Origin: Companilactobacillus allii
GTDB taxonomy: Bacteria > Bacillota > Bacilli > Lactobacillales > Lactobacillaceae
Assembly: GCF_001971585.1 (NCBI RefSeq)
Contig: NZ_CP019323.1
Location: forward strand, 1,726,053-1,790,052
Direction: 5' to 3'
Length of the DNA: 64,000 bases
The notes under the pieces were generated by a model. It did not search any database, had not been told where the DNA came from, and was given only the letters and a program-made list of their open reading frames with translations. Numbering within the stretch: position 1 is the first letter of the stretch; the number at the start of each line of letters is the position of its first letter. Both the position numbers and the translations under genes were made by a program. Shown here one piece after another: positions 14,666 to 63,748 of the stretch.

Positions 14666-15418
14666 ATGAAACCAATTGATAATACTATAACTGATCTGCT
14701 GTTTAAGCATGTCTCTGTACGTTCTTTTACAAATGAAGTATTGCCAGATGAAGTTGTAAAAAAGCTTGTGACGGTTGCACAGGCTGCTTCAACGGCTAGT
14801 TTTCAGCAATCATATTCCATAATTGATGTGGTTGATGAAAATTTACGAGAAAAAGTTACACAAGCTTCTAGGAATCAGCGCTTTATGAATCAAGGTGGCA
14901 GATTATTTATATTCTGTGCTGACCTAAATAGAAATAACCAAATGGCCAAAGATTTAGGATTAGATGTTACTCAAACTATTGAAGGACTAGATGCAACTTT
15001 GGCAGGTACAATTGATGCCACTTTAGCAGCTCAAAATATGGTTATTGCGGCAGAATCAATGGGATTAGGCGTTTGTTTTATTGGTGGAGTACGGGATAAT
15101 ATCGAAGAAGTATCAGAGCTTTTGAATATTCCTGATCATGTATTCCCAGTTTATGGTTTAGTTATCGGTCATCCAAAAGACAAATTAAATGATATCAAAC
15201 CACGTTTACCATTCGAAGCTGTTTATCATAAGAACCAGTATGCAGATAAGATTGATATTGTTAGATCCTATAATATTAAGACAAATGAATATTATAATAA
15301 ACGATACGGAAAAAAGACGGATCGAAACTGGGCAAGAACTGCAGTTAACAGTTTAATTAAATTACCTAGGTCATTTATGAAATCATATTTGAATAGTCAC
15401 AATTTGAGTAAGCATTAA
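14666..15418 (+). CDS. Flavin-dependent NADPH oxidoreductase / nitroreductase (NfsA/FRP type)
   Basis: A 250-residue FMN-dependent nitroreductase-fold enzyme. The N-terminal HVSVRSFTNEVLPDE segment carries the RS-x-R/F FMN phosphate contact; QAASTASFQQSYS and the central AAESMGLGVCFIGGVRDN match the NfsA/Frp subgroup, which reduces quinones, nitroaromatics or free flavin with NADPH. The physiological substrate cannot be told. It stands alone between two terminators (14542 and 15432), with TTGACA at 14604 but no clear matching -10; a TGCTAATAC extended -10 lies nearby. It breaks the usual thiN-rpmB adjacency, so it is probably an accessory insertion. Confidence 0.85.
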   Translation: MKPIDNTITDLLFKHVSVRSFTNEVLPDEVVKKLVTVAQAASTASFQQSYSIIDVVDENLREKVTQASRNQRFMNQGGRLFIFCADLNRNNQMAKDLGLDVTQTIEGLDATLAGTIDATLAAQNMVIAAESMGLGVCFIGGVRDNIEEVSELLNIPDHVFPVYGLVIGHPKDKLNDIKPRLPFEAVYHKNQYADKIDIVRSYNIKTNEYYNKRYGKKTDRNWARTAVNSLIKLPRSFMKSYLNSHNLSKH

Positions 15419-53569: not shown

Positions 53570-53608
53570 TGAGGCTTAAGCCTTTTTTTATTTGTTGAAA
53601 GGTAAGTT

Positions 53609-56600
53609 ATGTCTGATAAAAATCAACTTTTTAAAATATTAATTAAACAAATCAAATTAGATAATTTGTTGGATTCCGATGATCTATTTAAAAATGCAAA
53701 GTTGGATAAGTTGGAGGTTCATAAGAAGTCACGTCGTTGGACATTCTTCTTTGATTTTGACGATGTAATTCCGTTTAATGAATTTCAAGTTTTCGTGGAA
53801 TCATTAAAGAGTGGATTCGAGGGTATTGCAACTGTTGATTTTGATATTCATGTGAATAATCCTCGTTTAAGTGAGAAAAATATTCGTGAGTATTGGAATT
53901 ATGTATTAGAAAACTGTGAGCAACGTTCACCAGTTGTTTCGCAATTAATGAGTCAACATCCACCCAAGGTTGAAAATGACCAAGTCTTCTTGACGGTTTC
54001 AAACGGATTTATTGCTGATTTTATGGACGGTAAGTTAACTGCCAGTCTGCAGGATGCATATACATCACTAGGGTTTGCACCATTTAAGATTCGCGTAGAT
54101 GTGGATGAGGCTAAAGGTCAAGAAAATATCCAAGCACTGGAACTTGCAAAAAAGGAAGAAACGAAGCATTTTCAGGAAAAGGCCCAAGAGGTCAGTCAAA
54201 AACGTGCTAAAAAACCGGCCGGTAATATTGTGAAAATTGGTCGAAAGATACCAGACGATGCTGAGATCACTCAAATGGTAGACATTATTGAAGAGGACCG
54301 TAACAAAGTTGTGGAAGGTCATATTTTCAATAAGGATGTAAAAAAGTTGAAATCAGGCCGTTCACTATTATTATTGAAGGTTACTGATTATACTTCTTCA
54401 TTCAGCATAAAGAAGTTTTCAAATGGTGAAGATGACGAAGACTTTTTCGATAATTTGGATGACGGGGCATGGATTCGTGTTCGTGGTAGTGTTCAAGAAG
54501 ATAATTTTTCACGTGAGCTATCAATTATGGCGAACGATATTATGGTTATAAAACATGCTGGACGTATAGATAATGCTGATAAAGATAATAAAAGAATCGA
54601 GTTACATGCACATACTAATATGAGTCAGATGGATGCAATCCCTAGTGCCACTGATTTAGTTAAGCGTGCCAGTGAATGGGGACAGCCAGCCATTGCTATT
54701 ACTGATCATAGAGCTTTACAAGCTTTCCCTGAAGCATATAGTGCCGGTCAAAAATATGGAGTAAAAATAGGTTATGGTGTAGAAATCGACTTAGTTGATG
54801 AAGGTAATCCAATCGCTTATAACTTACGCGATGAAGAACTTAATCCAGCTGAATACGTTATATTTGACGTTGAAACAACTGGTTTATCAGCAGTTTATGA
54901 TAATATAATTGAACTAGCTGCCACTAAGATGAAGGATGGCGAGGTAGTTGATTCGTTTGATGAATTTATTAACCCGGGACATCCACTGTCAGAATTCACC
55001 ACTAGTTTGACGAGTATAACTGATAGTATGGTTAGCAACGCTCCTGATGAGAAGACAATTATTCAAAAATTCATGGATTTTGTTGGAAATGACATTTTGG
55101 TAGGTCACAACGTTACTTTTGATATTGGTTTTTTGAATTCCGCTTTAATGCGCATGGGGAGTGAACGTGTTTCAGTCCCAGTTATTGATACTCTGGAAAT
55201 GTCACGTACATTACATTCAGAATATCGTAATCATAAATTAGACTCACTTGCAAAACGATACAATATTGTACTTGAACATCATCACCGTGCTAATGCCGAT
55301 GCTGAGACAACTGGATATTTGATGTATAAATTGTTTGATGAAATGGAAGATAAATTTCAGATTACAAACGTTTCACAACTAAATGATCATATAGGTGGAG
55401 TTGAAGCATACAAACAAGCTCGTCCTAGTCATGCAATTCTAATTGCAAAGACTCAGGCTGGATTGAAGAATATGTTCAAAATCGTCTCATATGGAATGAC
55501 TGAATATTATTACCGAACGGCACGAGTACCGAGAAGATTATTGAATAAATATCGTGAAGGAATTCTGGTCGGATCGGCATGTAAAGATGGTGAAGTATTT
55601 AATACGATGATGCAAAAAGGATATGAAGATACCCGTGAACTTGCACAATATTATGACTATCTTGAAGTTATGCCCAAACCTGTATATCGTCATTTGCTTG
55701 ATGCAAAGCTAATTAAAGATGAAGCAGGACTAGAGGAAATAATAAAAAATATTATTAAATTGGGTAAAGAATTGAATAAGCCTGTTGTTGCAACTGGTGA
55801 TGTTCATTACTTGGATCCACATGATAAAATTTATCGAGAAATTGTAATAAAAGCTGTCAAAAGTAATCCATTGGCTAGACAAACATTGCCAGATGTACAA
55901 TTTAGAACAACTGATGAAATGTTTGATGAGTTTGACTTTCTTGATAAAGAAACAGCACAAGAAATAATTGTTGATAATCCTAAAAAGGTTATGGATGAAA
56001 TTGATGAAATTGCTCCGGTTAAAGATAAGCTATATACCCCTAAAATGGAGGGTGCAGAGGATGAAATTCGTAGTTTGACTATGAATAAAGTTCATGAGCT
56101 GTATGGTGAAAAACTTCCAGAGATTGTTCAAGAACGAATGGACAAAGAACTCAAGAGTATTATAGGTAATGGATTCTCAGTTATTTATTTGATTTCTCAG
56201 CGTCTAGTTTATAAATCTAATAAAGATGGATATTTGGTTGGATCCAGAGGTTCAGTTGGTTCAAGTTTCGTCGCCACTATGACCGGGATTACTGAAGTCA
56301 ACCCACTACCTCCGCATTATCGTTGTCCGAAATGTAAATTTTCAGAATTCTTTACTAAAGGTGAAGTTGGTTCTGGATTTGATCTACCGGATAAGAAATG
56401 TCCAAAATGTGGAACTGAATTAAAGAAAGATGGACAAGATATTCCCTTTGAGACATTCTTAGGTTTTAAAGGTGACAAAGTTCCAGATATTGATTTGAAT
56501 TTCTCTGGTGACTATCAGCCAGTGGCACATAACTATACAAAGGTTCTTTTCGGTGAGGATCATGTTTTCCGAGCAGGTACGATTGGTACGATTGCAGATA

Positions 56601-57907
56601 GAACGGCGTTTGGTTATGTTAAGAATTATGAGGAATTAACTGAAAAACAGATTCGTAATGCTGAAGAAGAACGTTTGGCTATGGGTTCTACTGGTGTTAA
56701 ACGTACAACAGGACAACATCCCGCTGGAATCATCGTTGTTCCAGATTATATGGATATTTTTGATTTTACGCCGATTCAATATCCGGCTGATGATCAAAAC
56801 GCAGCCTGGAAAACGACGCATTTTGACTTCCACTCAATTCATGATAATATTTTGAAACTTGATATTTTGGGACATGATGATCCAACAATGATTCGTACGT
56901 TACAAGATTTGTCTGGAATTGATCCATTAACAATTCCAGTTGATGATCCTGAGGTCATGGAATTGTTCCGTAGTACTAAGTCACTAGGGGTTACGCCTGA
57001 ACAGATTTTTTCAAAAACAGGTACACTTGGAGTTCCGGAATTTGGTACTAGATTTGTTCGTGGAATGTTAGAGAAGACCCACCCAACGACCTTTGCTGAA
57101 TTGTTACAGATTTCTGGATTATCGCATGGTACAGATGTTTGGTTAGGTAATGCAGAAGAACTTATTGATCAAGGTGTTGTTACATTAAAGGAAGTTATTG
57201 GTTGTCGTGATAATATCATGATGGATTTGATTCATTGGGGTATGAAATCACAAACAGCATTCCAAATCATGGAGCATGTTCGTAAGGGACGTGGTATTCC
57301 CGATGAATGGAAACAGGAAATGAAAGATGCAAATGTTCCGGATTGGTATATTAAATCTTGTTTAAAGATTAAGTATATGTTCCCTAAGGCTCATGCGACT
57401 GCCTATATTTTAATGGCATTGCGTATTGCGTATTTCAAAGTTCATTATCCACTGTATTATTACAGTGCATATTTCTCCGTTCGTGCTGATGATTTTGATT
57501 TGGTTTCCATGACTACAGGTAAAGATGCCGTTAAGAATGCTATGAAAGCAATTAATGACAAAGGTATGGAAGCTTCAACAAAAGAGAAGAATTTGTTGAC
57601 AGTATTAGAGTTAGCAAATGAATGTTTGGAACGTGATTTCAAGATAAATATGGTTGATCTGGAGAAATCAGATGCTTTTGAATTCAAGATCATTGATGAT
57701 AAGACATTGCTAGCACCATTCAATGCTATTCCTGGATTAGGGGATAATGTTGCTAAGCAGATTGTTGCCGCACGTGAAGAACAGCCTTTTCTATCTAAGG
57801 AAGACCTATCAACACGTGGTAAGGTTTCGAAAACTATCATTGAATATATGACTGAAAATCATGTTTTAGATGGAATGCCTGACGAAAATCAACTCTCTTT
57901 GTTTTAG
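53609..57907 (+). CDS. polC: DNA polymerase III alpha subunit, PolC type
   Basis: The Gram-positive replicative polymerase, 1432 residues. Domains in order: N-terminal domain, OB-fold (about 230-320), a PHP domain ([16 protein letters not shown]) split by a proofreading exonuclease that begins [16 protein letters not shown] near residue 418, then the palm with [17 protein letters not shown], a zinc finger (CPKCKFSEF and CPKCG, about 905-935), [12 protein letters not shown] with catalytic Asp residues, fingers and a helix-hairpin-helix end. The ending DENQLSLF is the clamp-binding motif (QLSLF). Confidence 0.97.
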
Positions 57908-57923
57908 CTTCAGACGTTAGAGG

Positions 57924-57952
57924 TTGCTTTAAATGTAAATATATGTTAAATT
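57924..57952 (+). promoter_or_regulatory. Promoter of the rimP-nusA-infB operon
   Basis: TTGCTT (57924-57929), 17 bases, TAAATT (57947-57952), with TG one base before the -10. It lies upstream of the terminator hairpin at 57978. Confidence 0.6.
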
Positions 57953-57977
57953 AACTACTAGTTAATTATTGATTAAT

Positions 57978-58004
57978 GAGTGAGCAGAGATGCTCACTCT
58001 TTTT
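57978..58004 (+). terminator. Leader terminator upstream of rimP (likely attenuator)
   Basis: Perfect arms GAGTGAGCA and TGCTCACTC around GAGA, then five T. It is about 26 bases after the predicted transcription start and 28 bases before the rimP TTG, so it may work as an attenuator as well as closing polC. In Bacillus, nusA is autoregulated by NusA-stimulated termination in its leader. Confidence 0.8.
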
Positions 58005-58031
58005 ATTGCCGATTACTTTGGAGGAGAATTT

Positions 58032-58499
58032 TTGAATACAAAAATTGATGAATTAAAAGCCATCTTACAACCCGTTTTAGATAAACATGAGTTTTTTCTA
58101 GTCGACCTAGAATTTGTTCATGAAGGCGGAGATTGGTATTTACGCGTTTATGCTGATAAAAAAGGCGGAATTAGTATTGATGATTGCGCAATTATTAGTG
58201 AGGAGTATGGCGAAAGATTAGATGAACTTGATCCGATTGATCCAGCATACTATTTGGAAGTATCATCACCAGGTGCTGAAAGAGTACTTGATAATGATGA
58301 TAGCCTTTTAAATTATCTAGATGCATATGTAAATGTTTCTTTATACCAAAAGCAAGATGGTGACAAAGTTTTCGAAGGAAAAATGACTGAAATAACTGAT
58401 ACACAAATAACCTTAAATATAAAAGTTAAGAATCTTAAAAAGACAATCATTATTGATAGAGATAAAATTGCTAAGATTCGTTTAGCCATAGAATTCTAG
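58032..58499 (+). CDS. rimP: Ribosome maturation factor RimP
   Basis: Assists 30S assembly. 155 residues from TTG at 58032, set by GGAGGAGAA; an upstream in-frame ATG lies inside the terminator hairpin. FLVDLEFVHEGGDWYLRVYAD, SIDDCAIISEE and YYLEVSSPGAERVL are the family blocks. First gene of the nusA operon as in nearly all bacteria. Confidence 0.94.
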   Translation: MNTKIDELKAILQPVLDKHEFFLVDLEFVHEGGDWYLRVYADKKGGISIDDCAIISEEYGERLDELDPIDPAYYLEVSSPGAERVLDNDDSLLNYLDAYVNVSLYQKQDGDKVFEGKMTEITDTQITLNIKVKNLKKTIIIDRDKIAKIRLAIEF

Positions 58500-58522: not shown

Positions 58523-59710
58523 ATGAGTAAAGAAATGGTTGACGCACTTGATGCGCTAGAAACTGAAAAAGGTATCAAAAAAGAGTATGTTATTGAATCA
58601 CTAGAGGCAGCTCTTGTTGCAGCTTATAAGCGTAACTATAATCAAGCTCAAAACGTTGAGGTTGAATTTGACGCAAAAAAGGGTAATATACATGTTTATG
58701 CGGTTAAAGAAGTCGTTGAAGAGGTTGCTGATGAACGATTAGAGATAAGTCTTGCTGCAGCTTTAAAGAAGAGCAAGGGTTATGAACTTGGAGATCACGT
58801 TCGTGAAGAAGTAACACCTAAAGATTTTGGTAGAATTGCTGCACAAACTGCAAAACAAGTGATTATGCAACGTGTTCGTGAAGCTGAACGTGATATCATT
58901 TATAATGAATATAGTCAATATGAACATGAAATCATTCAAGGTATTGTAGAACGTAGTGATAGTAGGTTTGTATATATTAATTTTGGTAAGATTGAAGCAG
59001 TAATGGCAAAATCTGACCAAATGCCAGGTGAAGTTTACAATTCTCGTGATAGAATTCGTGTATATGTAACAAAAGTTGAAAATGCTACTAAAGGACCTCA
59101 AGTCTTTGTATCAAGAACAGATCCCGGTTTAGTAAAAAGATTATTTGAACAAGAGGTCCCAGAAATATATGATGGAACTGTAGAAATCGTCTCTATTGCT
59201 CGTGAAGCGGGTGATAGAACTAAGATGGCAGTGAAATCTGATAACGCTGATATTGACCCAGTTGGTACATGTGTTGGACCTAAGGGTTCACGTGTTCAAG
59301 CTGTTGTTGATGAACTTAACGGTGAAAATATTGATGTTGTGCCATATGTTGATGACCCAATCGACTTTATTGCGAATGCACTTAATCCAGCAGAAGTAAT
59401 TGCTGTACAATTTGATGGTAACGACAAAAAACAATGTATTGTTATAGTACCTGATTATCATTTGTCATTGGCAATTGGTAAAAAAGGTCAAAATGCACGT
59501 TTAGCCGCTAAATTGACTGGATATAAAATTGACATTAAACCTGAATCACAAGTTGAATTTGTTGATGATAACGATCAAGATGTAGATATAGATGATATTG
59601 ATAAGAAATTGGATACAGATAAAGAACAAAGTGTTGATACGGATAAGTCTGTGAAGAAAGATACAGATGTAGATAAGACTGTAGATACAGATACTGATTC
59701 ACAAGATTAA
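58523..59710 (+). CDS. nusA: Transcription termination/antitermination factor NusA
   Basis: 395 residues: N-terminal RNA polymerase-binding domain (1-130), S1 domain (IIQGIVERSDSRFVYINFG), and KH1/KH2 (CVGPKGSRVQAVVDEL; LAIGKKGQNARLAAKLTG). The Gram-positive core ends near residue 345; a further 50 residues are a low-complexity tail of Asp, Thr, Lys and Val in loosely repeated DTDK/DTDV units. It may regulate its own operon through the terminator at 57978. Confidence 0.97.
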   Translation: MSKEMVDALDALETEKGIKKEYVIESLEAALVAAYKRNYNQAQNVEVEFDAKKGNIHVYAVKEVVEEVADERLEISLAAALKKSKGYELGDHVREEVTPKDFGRIAAQTAKQVIMQRVREAERDIIYNEYSQYEHEIIQGIVERSDSRFVYINFGKIEAVMAKSDQMPGEVYNSRDRIRVYVTKVENATKGPQVFVSRTDPGLVKRLFEQEVPEIYDGTVEIVSIAREAGDRTKMAVKSDNADIDPVGTCVGPKGSRVQAVVDELNGENIDVVPYVDDPIDFIANALNPAEVIAVQFDGNDKKQCIVIVPDYHLSLAIGKKGQNARLAAKLTGYKIDIKPESQVEFVDDNDQDVDIDDIDKKLDTDKEQSVDTDKSVKKDTDVDKTVDTDTDSQD

Positions 59711-59723
59711 GGGGGTGATGGGT

Positions 59724-60032
59724 TTGGCAACACGTAAGATACCCATGAGAAAAGATGTTCTAACCAATGAAATGTACCCTAAAAGAGAAATGGTTAGAAT
59801 TGTAAAAGATAAAGATGGTATTATCTCTATTGACCCAACTGGTAAAAAGTCTGGACGTGGTGCTTATGTTGGCCTGGATCCTGATGCTGTTAAGGAAGCA
59901 AAGTCCAAGAAAGTTTTGGATAAAGTTTTTTCACATTCTGTTCCAGAAGAATTTTATGATGAATTATTTGAATTTGTCGACCATCAAAAAGCCAGAATGG
60001 ATTTATTTGGAGATTTGAGTAAGAAACATTGA
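59724..60032 (+). CDS. rnpM: YlxR-family RNA-binding protein (RnpM)
   Basis: 102 residues beginning MATRKIPMRKDVLTNE, with VRIVKDKDGIISIDPTGKKSGRGAYVGLD, cited by position (about residues 23-51), the conserved core. In Bacillus the protein was reported to bind and modulate RNase P. TTG at 59724 is preferred because GGGGGTGAT at 59711 is its ribosome binding site; ATG 59718 is inside it. Most relatives have CxxC-type RKC residues; here the Cys is Asp. Confidence 0.88.
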   Translation: MATRKIPMRKDVLTNEMYPKREMVRIVKDKDGIISIDPTGKKSGRGAYVGLDPDAVKEAKSKKVLDKVFSHSVPEEFYDELFEFVDHQKARMDLFGDLSKKH

Positions 60033-60328
60033 ATGATGTATTTTTAAATTTTTTGGGTATAGCTCTGCGTGCTGGAAAAATTATTAGTGGTACAGAATTA
60101 ACCTTGCAGGGAATTCGAAATCAGAGCGTTAAGTTGGTAATTATGGCAAGTGATTGCAGTGATCGCACAAAAAAAGATTTGACGAATAAGACAAATTCTT
60201 ATGCTGTGCCATTGATTGATAATTTCACCAGTCAAGAACTAAAAAGATCTATCGGTAAAGAAAGAAAAGTTATCGGTGTTACGGATCTTGGAATTGCTAG
60301 AAGGTTAATTGAAATTATGGAAAATTAA
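60029..60328 (+). CDS. L7Ae/L30e-family RNA-binding protein (YlxQ-like)
   Basis: 99 residues with the kink-turn-binding fold: [37 protein letters not shown] and [17 protein letters not shown]. The start TTG at 60029 overlaps the rnpM stop by 4 bases, so it is translationally coupled. Invariably between ylxR and infB in Firmicutes; its RNA target is unknown. Confidence 0.92.
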
Positions 60329-60341
60329 GGAGAGTGATAGG

Positions 60342-63300
60342 ATGGCCAAAAAACGAATCTATACTATTGCAAAAGAAAATAGTGTTGAAAATCAAATTGT
60401 ATTAGATGCCGCTGCCAAATTAGGTATCGATGTAAAAAATCACATGTCGTCAGTTGACGAAACAAGTGAGAAGAAAATTGTAGGTAGTCTTAAGAGTAAA
60501 CCAGCTTCAAGACCAGTATCAAAACCTGCTGCTAAGCCAGCTACAAGTGATAATTCACCAAAGCAAAATTCAGGTGAAAGTCATCAACAAGCCGGTGATC
60601 ATAAGACTAAGATTAAGATTACTGCTGTAAGAAGAGACCCTAACAAGAATAAGGGACACTTTGATCACAATAACCATACTCGTAGTAATAACAGTAATAG
60701 TAACGGAAGTGGTAACAGTAACTACCGTGGAAATAATAATCACAATGGTAATCGTAATAGTAACTCTACTGTAAATCATAGTAATAATTCCAATACTACT
60801 AATTCAGTAAATCGTACTAATAGTTCTAATTCAACTACTACAAACCGTAGTAACAATTCCACTACAAATACGACAAACAGTAATTATAGAGGAAATAATA
60901 CTAATAACAGTAGTAACAACCGTCCTGGTAATAATTATAATGGGAATAATCGTCCAAACGGAAATCGTAATAGCAACGTTCGTAGTGACAATCGAAACAA
61001 TACTTCCCAAAATCGTGATCGTCGTAACAATGGCAGTGTTAGACGTGATCGTCCACAAACATCACAAGCCCCAAGACCTAGACAAAGTGCTGGTAACAAA
61101 TATCTAGAGCAATTTAAGACAAATATTCAAGAGGCTAGTCGTACGCCTTCCCGTCCTAGAAACAATCGTAATAACCATAATACAAATAGCGGTAATCGTT
61201 CAGAAGACAACCGTAACAATAACCGTTCTAGTGTAAATCGTAACAATAGTTCCCGTCCTACTACTAACAGTAACAATAGTAGTGGTAATCGTTTCAATAA
61301 TAACAATCATAATACTAGTAACAATAATCATAATAATAATTCTAATAACAGAAACAATTCAAGCAACACAAACAGAAGACCAGCAGCCCAAAGTACTGCT
61401 AAGGAAACTGTAAAGAATAATGTTTCTCCAGCAAGCGTTGAAGTTCCAAAGCCAGAATATAAGAAAACAAAGCCAACTAATAACAATCGTGACTTTGGAC
61501 ACAGACAAAATCTAGCTAATCCTTTCGGAAGTCGTAAGAAGAAGAAAGAAAGAAAGAGACAACAACGTCAAAGAACTGAACCAAGAAAGCCAATGCCACA
61601 AAGAAAAGATCGTCCATTACCAAAGACACTTGTATATAGTGTTGGTATGAATGCTCAAGATATTGGTAAATTGATTCACCGTGAACCAGCTGAAATTGTT
61701 AAGAAGTTATTTATGCTTGGTATTATGATCAATCAAAACCAATCATTAGATAAAGATGCAATTGAACTTTTAGCTACTGATTACGGTATTGAGTCAGAAG
61801 AGAAAGTTGAAGAAGATATCGCTGATATCGATCAATATTTCGATGCTGAAACAACAAATAAAGAAAATCTAGTATCTCGTCCTCCAGTTGTTACAATTAT
61901 GGGTCACGTTGACCATGGTAAGACAACTCTATTGGATCACTTGAGACATACTCACGTTACAGCCGGTGAAGCTGGTGGTATTACTCAACATATTGGTGCT
62001 TATCAAGTAAGATTAAATGATCAATTGATCACATTCCTTGATACTCCGGGACATGCTGCATTTACAAATATGCGTGCTCGTGGTGCTGATATTACTGATA
62101 TTGTTATCTTAGTTGTTGCTGCTGATGATGGTGTTATGCCACAGACAATCGAAGCTATTAATCATGCTAAGGCTGCAAATGATCCAATCATCGTTGCAGT
62201 TAATAAGATTGATAAGGCTGGCGCAAATCCACAACATGTTACTGAACAATTAATGGAATATGGACTTGTTCCTGAAGATTATGGTGGGGATACTATCTTT
62301 GTTAATATTTCTGCTAAGGTCGGAACAAACATTGATCAATTACTTGAAATGATTCTTTTACAAGCTGACGTTATGGAATTGAAAGCTAATCCAGACCAAA
62401 AGGCTGTCGGTACTGTTATCGAAGCTAAACTTGATAAGGGTCGTGGACCAGTTGCATCATTATTGGTACAACAAGGTACACTTCATGTTGGAGATCCAAT
62501 TGTTGTTGGTAATACATATGGACGTGTTAGAACTATGACAAACTATAACGGTAAAGAAGTTAAAAAGGCAATGCCTTCTCAACCAATTGAAGTTACTGGT
62601 TTGAATGATGTTCCTGAATCAGCTGATAAATTCGTTGTCTTTGATGATGAGAAAACTGCTCGTGCAGCTGGTGAAGAACGTGCAAGTCGTGCTCTTCAAA
62701 TTGAACGTCAAAAGACTAACCCAGTTACATTGGATAACTTGTTTGAAACAATGAAAGAAGGAGAACTTAAGACTGTCGACGTTATTATTAAAGCCGATGT
62801 TCAAGGTTCTGCTGAAGCCATTGCAGGAAGCTTGAAGAAGATTGAAGTTGAGGGTGTTCGTGTAAACATCATTCATTCTGCTGTAGGTGCAATTACTGAA
62901 AGTGATGTTAACCTTGCTGCTGCAAGTAATGCCATCATAATCGGATTTAATGTTCGTCCAACAGCTCAAGCTCGTGTTCAAGCTAAGGAAGAAAACGTTG
63001 ATATTCGCCTACATAGAGTTATCTATAAGGCTATTGATGAAATCGAAGCAGCTATGAAGGGTATGCTAGAACCAGTTTATGAAGAGAAGATCACAGGTAA
63101 TTTGACTGTTCGTGAAACATATAATGTTTCTAAGATCGGTACAATTGCTGGATGTATCGTAAACAGTGGTAGTATTACTCGTGACAGCGGTATTCGTCTA
63201 ATTAGAGATAGTATTGTTGTCTATGAAGGTAAACTTGCTTCACTTAAACGTTTCAAAGACGACGTCAAAGAGGTTAAATCAGGATTCGAATGTGGTATAA

Positions 63301-63377
63301 CAATCGAAAACTATAATGATATCAAGATTGGCGACGAAGTTGAAACCTATGTGATGGAAGAAGTTCCAGTCAAATAG
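60342..63377 (+). CDS. infB: Translation initiation factor IF-2
   Basis: GTPase that brings fMet-tRNA to the 30S subunit. 1011 residues from ATG 60342, with AAGGAGAGTG upstream; the earlier in-frame ATG (60309) is in the preceding gene. An IF2-N domain (about 1-50), a long linker, a second IF2-N-like domain (about 425-485), then the G domain with GHVDHGKT (521-528), DTPGHAAF and NKIDKA, and the C-terminal tRNA-binding domains. Residues about 110-350 are low complexity, dominated by Asn with Arg, Ser and Thr, which makes it longer than Bacillus IF-2 (about 716 residues). Confidence 0.97.
60669..61391 (+). repeat. infB: Low-complexity AAT/AAC-rich stretch within infB
   Basis: About 720 bases of imperfect triplet-type repetition of AAT and AAC with AGT, CGT and ACT, coding an Asn/Arg/Ser/Thr-rich linker. 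Both Asn codons are mixed, so it is not a simple recent triplet expansion. Confidence 0.85.
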
Positions 63378-63388
63378 GAGATGATAAA

Positions 63389-63748
63389 ATGGTAAAACAT
63401 CGAATCGGTCGTGTAGAGCAAGAGATTCAAAAAGAAGTAAATGATATTTTGTTAAAACGTATTCGAGATCCTCGTGTACAAGGTGTAACTGTAACCGGAA
63501 TTGAAATGACAGGCGATTTACAATCAGCTACAATTTATTACAGCATTCTATCCGAAAAGGCTAGTGATGTTGAAAAGACTCAAGCTGGTTTAGATAAAGC
63601 TAAGGGATTAATTCGAAAAGAATTAGCTCCACGTCTAACCTTATATAAAATTCCAGAATTGGAATTTAAACAAGATAAATCAATTCAGTATGGTGAAAAA
63701 ATTGATCGTCTAATTGCTAAAATGCATAAGGATGAAGCAACAAGATAA
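63389..63748 (+). CDS. rbfA: Ribosome-binding factor A
   Basis: Late 30S assembly and cold-shock factor, 119 residues: HRIGRVEQEIQKEVNDIL, RDPRVQGVTVTGIEMTGDLQ and APRLTLYKIPELEFKQDKSI with the KH-type AxG kink. Last gene before the terminator at 63764. Confidence 0.96.
   Translation: MVKHRIGRVEQEIQKEVNDILLKRIRDPRVQGVTVTGIEMTGDLQSATIYYSILSEKASDVEKTQAGLDKAKGLIRKELAPRLTLYKIPELEFKQDKSIQYGEKIDRLIAKMHKDEATR

Follow-up and report, generated by a model that had tools for sequence, protein, structure and literature searches.

The intergenic region between polC and rimP of Companilactobacillus allii, which lies within the 64,000-nucleotide stretch of DNA analysed here (the window), carries a hairpin followed by a T-rich tract, and the question it raises is whether this element only ends the transcripts of polC or controls the operon that starts with rimP and has nusA as its second gene. 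Our analysis suggests, with a probability of roughly two in three, that the stretch is a rimP-leader transcription attenuator at which a trans-acting factor sets the extent of termination, NusA being the best candidate for that factor. Within this reading the predicted attenuator itself is held with high confidence, while the assignment of NusA as its effector, which comes from analogy and comparison, is held with moderate confidence. The layout of the region and of the operon is as follows (identities are mean pairwise values over 36 Companilactobacillus genomes):

53609..57907, + strand: polC (PolC-type DNA polymerase III), the upstream gene; ORF, NF001688 and TIGR01405 over cut-off
57924..57929, + strand: -35 element TTGCTT; identity 0.89, versus 0.45 between the polC stop and this element
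57942..57952, + strand: extended -10, TATG (TG at 57944-57945) plus TAAATT (57947-57952); identity 0.93
57953..57977, + strand: short, AT-rich leader of 25 nt before the hairpin; identity 0.83, antiterminator not found
57959..57960, + strand: predicted start of transcription, placed about 7 nt past the -10 from the position of the latter
57978..57986, + strand: terminator 5' arm GAGTGAGCA; identical in 36/36 genus genomes, identity 1.00
57987..57990, + strand: GNRA tetraloop GAGA; GNRA in 36/36 genus leaders
57991..57999, + strand: terminator 3' arm TGCTCACTC; 34/36 identical, identity 0.99
58000..58008, + strand: interrupted T tract TTTTTATTG (T5-A-TT-G); 35/36 identical, identity 0.99
58009..58019, + strand: conserved 11-nt stretch CCGATTACTTT from the tract to the Shine-Dalgarno sequence; identity 0.94
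58020..58024, + strand: Shine-Dalgarno sequence GGAGG; identity 1.00
58032..58499, + strand: rimP, TTG start at 58032-58034; PF02576, PF17384, NF000928 over cut-off
58523..59710, + strand: nusA with NusA_N, S1 and KH domains; TIGR01953, PF08529, PF13184, PF00575
59715..60032, + strand: ylxR/rnpM; NF047356 over cut-off
60029..60328, + strand: ylxQ (L7Ae-like RNA-binding protein); PF01248, NF004078 over cut-off
60309..63377, + strand: infB (ORF, start approximate); TIGR00487 over cut-off
63389..63748, + strand: rbfA; TIGR00082 over cut-off

The two promoter elements are separated by a spacer of 17 nt, with the TG one base 5' of TAAATT, and the hairpin GAGTGAGCA-GAGA-TGCTCACTC (57978-57999) forms a perfect 9-bp stem, 5 pairs of which are G-C. 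The rimP start lies 32 nt from the stem and 27 nt from the T5 run. These features bear out the first-pass annotation, which had placed a TTGCTT/TAAATT promoter 5' of a perfect 9-base-pair terminator and a gap of 27 bases between the latter and rimP, the gap being counted from 58004 to the start codon, whose last base is 58034. The promoter hexamers agree with the consensus at just 7 of 12 positions, and this promoter is missing from the sites called by the consensus promoter scan; the terminator-like sites in the consensus scan number 8, versus a shuffle mean of 6.0. Given that the promoter goes unlisted and that terminator-like sites are about as frequent in shuffled sequence, consensus alone is no proof of either element, and it is their conservation across the genus, rather than a match to consensus, that indicates that both are real.

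A rimP gene was found in all 36 Companilactobacillus genomes, and all 36 keep both the promoter and the hairpin, the latter sitting 20-21 nt 5' of the GGAGG. Comparison of the hairpin across the genus, as the first-pass annotation had proposed, showed the strict conservation of both arms and of the tract listed above, the only deviations being a 3' arm variant TGCTCGCTC in two genomes, which retains a T-G pair, and a tract variant ATTTTTTTG in one; the spacer of the promoter shows an identity of 0.58 and the third codon positions of rimP one of 0.59. The loop is GAAA in 19 leaders, GAGA in 11, GCAA in 4 and GGAA in 2, a count unconstrained by any hairpin pattern because the genus set was found through rimP. 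The stretch CCGATTACTTT is also conserved, although it lies 5' of the rimP start.

Such conservation could in principle be that of a coding sequence, if a longer RimP were to begin at an ATG at 57990 inside the hairpin, and the frame from this ATG is indeed in phase with rimP in 27/36 genomes. It is out of phase in the other 9, for which reason this candidate was rejected, and the GGAGG just 5' of the TTG at 58032 is identical in 36/36, so that a coding explanation is scarcely credible. The inverted repeat might alternatively act at the DNA level, as a repressor's operator lying over the first transcribed bases, which would befit a 9-bp palindrome of fixed sequence. This is very improbable in light of the GNRA loop of all 36 genus leaders, the conservation of the T tract on one side only, and the TGCTCGCTC variants (2/36 in the genus and 41/120 among the pattern matches listed, see below), which keep a U-G pair in RNA but break the palindrome in DNA.

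Beyond the genus, a covariance model built on the leader (R1) matched 222 of 301 Lactobacillaceae genomes, representing 31 of 40 genera, and a scan of GTDB contigs with the hairpin pattern GAGTGAGCAGNRATGCTCRCTCTTTTT recovered at least 120 stretches. Among the matches listed, the stem sequence is specific to rimP: a RimP ORF lies at most 700 nt downstream in 119 of 120, and the 120th is cut by the locus end with the rimP start visible. All of the 80 titles inspected among these matches are from Lactobacillaceae, save one Faecalicatena; this locus (L197, named Faecalicatena absiana in its title) shares 84% identity across 3.2 kb with one titled uncultured Lactobacillus (L176), which suggests that the title or assembly of L197 is wrong. 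An extended -10 motif (TGnTWnnnT) occurs 14-62 nt 5' of the hairpin in 115/120 matches listed versus 32.6 in shuffles, mostly at a distance of 22-28 nt, and in 120/120 an interruption follows the T5 run of the tract; loop and T5 counts in these loci are constrained by the search pattern, whereas the interruption was not.

The element also extends to genomes that the model fails to match. In a sample comprising 20 of the 79 unmatched family genomes and 6 with a weak R1 match, a hairpin with a T run precedes rimP in 25/26 loci versus 3.1 in shuffles, and the remaining locus (L126) also carries the hairpin; the strict extended -10 is found in just 13 of these 26. Two loci of a single family genus (L124 and L126, genus g9) have, by eye, tRNA genes instead of polC just upstream of the rimP hairpin. 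The order and class contributed 100 leaders from 42 families other than Lactobacillaceae; hairpin and T run were detected in 98 versus 14 in shuffles, and the two leaders failing the T-run rule show a hairpin by eye. The strict extended -10 is present in 92 of these 100, and the whole-promoter score is matched by at most 1/40 shuffles in 74; the figure of 99/100 for the extended -10 is inflated by use of a TG bonus that gives 43% in shuffles. Readings of the loci L053-L098 gave a GNRA loop in 42/47 and the reverse complement of GNRA in two more, in a set that was found by a model built on the GNRA loop and whose genomes were not deduplicated.

Whether the hairpin is simply the terminator of polC, with rimP expressed by leakage or from some other promoter and without regulation, is best judged from loci that differ in their upstream gene. 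Of 84 loci found through rimP, 33 show no recognisable PolC end upstream, and the hairpin and T run are present in 32 of them, with the qualification that "recognisable" denotes a C-terminal sequence pattern by which diverged ends may be missed; at one rimP-found locus (L313) the hairpin counted is another one, the rimP-leader hairpin being visible there too. Among the pattern matches listed the PolC end is recognisable upstream in 99/116 judgeable loci, which favours the terminator explanation, albeit in a set biased by having been selected by the hairpin. In the window itself the hairpin lies 70 nt past the polC stop and the scan lists no other terminator-like site between the two, as expected of a polC terminator, but a genus-conserved extended -10 promoter stands in front of the hairpin, and the scan lists no + strand promoter-like site between the tract and rimP from which the operon might otherwise be expressed. 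As the hairpin is kept without a PolC end, it is most likely an attenuator of the rimP leader, beyond any role as the terminator of polC, and the explanation by polC alone appears improbable.

A control hairpin between proS and polC (53571-53584, GAGGC-TTAA-GCCTT plus T7) tempers one line of this argument. The same 5' arm is present in 30/30 genus loci, drawn from 30 of the 36 genomes, and being equally invariant within the genus it weakens the argument from genus-level invariance of the rimP stem. This hairpin is kept in genus loci also where the sequence upstream differs. It is absent from 28/34 family-wide loci, the six carriers being five loci titled Companilactobacillus and the locus L242, and it is possibly a genus-specific terminator of the polC leader. 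A second control gene (window 14666-15418) was dropped, as orthologues with at least 78% identity were present in only 5/36 genomes, that of the window included.

The stem has a distinctive signature. Its motif is GAGC...GCTC, with GAGC present in 36/36 genus leaders, and the published GGGc(...)gCCC motif of the rimP-leader is absent from this stem. With the pairs numbered from the stem base upwards, the 94 readable leaders among the 100 from other families (the six unreadable ones being from families f4, f24 and f6) have G-C at pairs 1, 3 and 5 with at most one exception each, and A-T at pair 2 save for C-G in 3; pair 4 is T-A in 79 and T-G in 15, and G-C occupies pair 7 in 91. Pair 6 follows lineage: it is A-T in 23/23 readable leaders of f2, f3, f5, f7 and f9, five families of the same order, and in all 36 Companilactobacillus leaders, and G-C in the 71/71 other readable leaders, of which 65 belong to other orders and 6 to one same-order family (f8). 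Among the R1-negative Lactobacillaceae leaders, some have G-C at pair 6 (L107 and L109, and by reading L113, L114 and L123) and others a different stem, such as GRGCGGGYC...GRCCGGCTC. Five leaders of two other families show other hairpins at the same place (GAGGCG...CGCCTC in L330-L332 of f4; GGAGTAGG...CCTRCTCC in L353-L354 of f24). Since pair 6 changes on both arms, pairing is kept, and this covariation supports an RNA hairpin; the change is a compensatory one and gives a lineage-specific variant of the rimP-leader signature.

The hairpin has a folding energy of -14.4 kcal/mol (z -4.7) and a G-C pair at its base, and no structure competing with it was found in the RNA ahead of it. For the RNA that runs from 57959 through the 5' arm, the folding energy is just -1.2 kcal/mol (z -0.02), and the nascent upstream RNA of one leader from each of the 42 other families is no more structured than expected (mean z 0.10); no antiterminator was found by folding in the leader of the window or in the 42-family leader set. 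The remark of the first-pass annotation that no antiterminator is obvious is supported by these results. An upstream ACTC, complementary to the GAGT in the stem, was considered as the basis of an antiterminator; ACTCG occurs within 24 nt in 38/120 matches listed, and this candidate was rejected because only some members of the family have the ACTC and it is not seen in the genus alignment. The AACTC-like upstream motifs, which may resemble a NusA-binding RNA of Mycobacterium tuberculosis, were given no evidential weight. With no competing RNA structure, a trans-acting factor that operates on termination is the simplest form of control, and a leader peptide ahead of the hairpin is unlikely since the RNA would begin just about 20 nt 5' of it, which is too short.

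These features are consistent with a mechanism in which RNA polymerase would start near 57959 from the extended -10 promoter and, within about 20 nt, the GAGUGAGCA-GNRA-UGCUCACUC hairpin would form. The interrupted U tract would then lead either to release of a transcript of about 46-50 nt or to read-through into rimP-nusA-rnpM-ylxQ-infB-rbfA, and with more NusA there would be more termination and in turn less NusA. It is probable, too, that transcripts arriving from polC end at this hairpin. NusA is a general transcription factor, the amount of which must be held steady, and the leader is probably its thermostat.

The identity of the sensor is the point at which the attenuator reading divides, for the attenuator could be real and the stem with its GNRA loop be read by RimP, RnpM/YlxR, YlxQ (L7Ae-like), IF2 or a ribosomal protein rather than by NusA. 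Between genera, and for the most part between families as well, it is the sequence of the stem and not its pairing alone that stays the same, a pattern that points to a protein binding there; two small products of the operon bear names that mark them as RNA-binding, and the link to NusA in this lineage is one that we infer. Distal interruptions of the U tract have been described for NusA-dependent terminators, and the hairpins of Nus-dependent terminators tend to be weaker (PMC8060035); the tract TTTTTATTG does have a distal interruption, while the hairpin is strong and has a G-C pair at its base, which counts against NusA. A sensor other than NusA is nonetheless unlikely in view of the autoregulation of Bacillus subtilis NusA by NusA-stimulated termination in its leader, as stated in a 2025 review (PMC12288461), and of NusA's repressive effect on the E. 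coli operon, cited in PMC2965389.

A further feature of the leaders of other Bacilli is a box, GG[ATC][AT]ATACT, at the predicted RNA start in 16/42 families (one leader each); 200 shuffles gave 0.075 on average and never more than 1. Its ATACT lies mostly 10-11 nt past the -10 (e.g. L340, L326 and L339), and the box is absent from the Companilactobacillus leaders; it could be a start-site signal or one at the 5' end of the RNA. As a tentative extension of the attenuator reading, which we regard as rather doubtful, the stem might be read sequence-specifically, with NusA or an RNA-binding protein of the operon recognising GAGUG(G/A)GC, several families of this order having replaced the G-C by A-U while the protein changed to match, and the GG(U/A/C)(A/U)AUACU box of many other Bacilli forming part of the site. 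If a protein does read the stem, regulation should alter when species exchange leaders of the GGG type and the GAG type, and the one-pair compensatory switch in a stem of otherwise fixed sequence would amount to a natural experiment.

Among known systems the closest is the rimP-leader described by Naville and Gautheret in 2010 (PMC2965389), in whose list rimP is the most frequent target of attenuation and for which NusA was proposed as the favoured effector. That report describes an unusual conserved GGGc...gCCC stem with no antiterminator and no riboswitch-like domain, a terminator 4-130 nt from the gene, and no larger conserved element. The leader studied here is alike in having, in the rimP-nusA-infB 5' UTR, a premature terminator made of a hairpin and a T stretch, a conserved stem and no antiterminator, and its terminator distance of 27 or 32 nt falls inside the 4-130 nt range. 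It differs from the published description in its GAGC...GCTC stem (A-U for G-C), GNRA tetraloop and T5-A-TT-G tract, and as the GGGc...gCCC motif is absent it is filed as a variant and not as a plain member. The Rfam model RF01770 (rimP) is named for the same gene and does not match this leader: the rimP-leader was not flagged in the window at the gathering threshold (release 15), no relevant Rfam match, RF01770 included, was obtained in 57900-58100 at E up to 10, and over the whole genome RF01770 gave sub-threshold matches elsewhere only. This model passes its own cut-off in just 1 of 14 control genomes.

The primary source for the autoregulation of NusA in B. subtilis appears to be Mondal et al. 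2016. The parallel with B. subtilis nusA drawn in the first-pass annotation agrees with the statement in the review (PMC12288461): in both cases a leader terminator, predicted here and NusA-stimulated in B. subtilis, lies upstream of nusA, and here, by sequence and conservation, the promoter likewise lies upstream of the terminator, while the hairpin is strong and perfectly paired. The proposal of attenuation in the rimP-nusA leader is itself well supported by comparison, the promoter-terminator arrangement being kept in the genus and the hairpin in the family, and it matches what PMC2965389 states on the rimP-leader and PMC12288461 on B. subtilis; the published rimP-leader had gone unrecognised in the annotation. 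On the whole, the element is largely one already known, the published rimP-leader, and what sets it apart is the GAGC...GCTC signature, together with the lack of a match to the Rfam rimP model.
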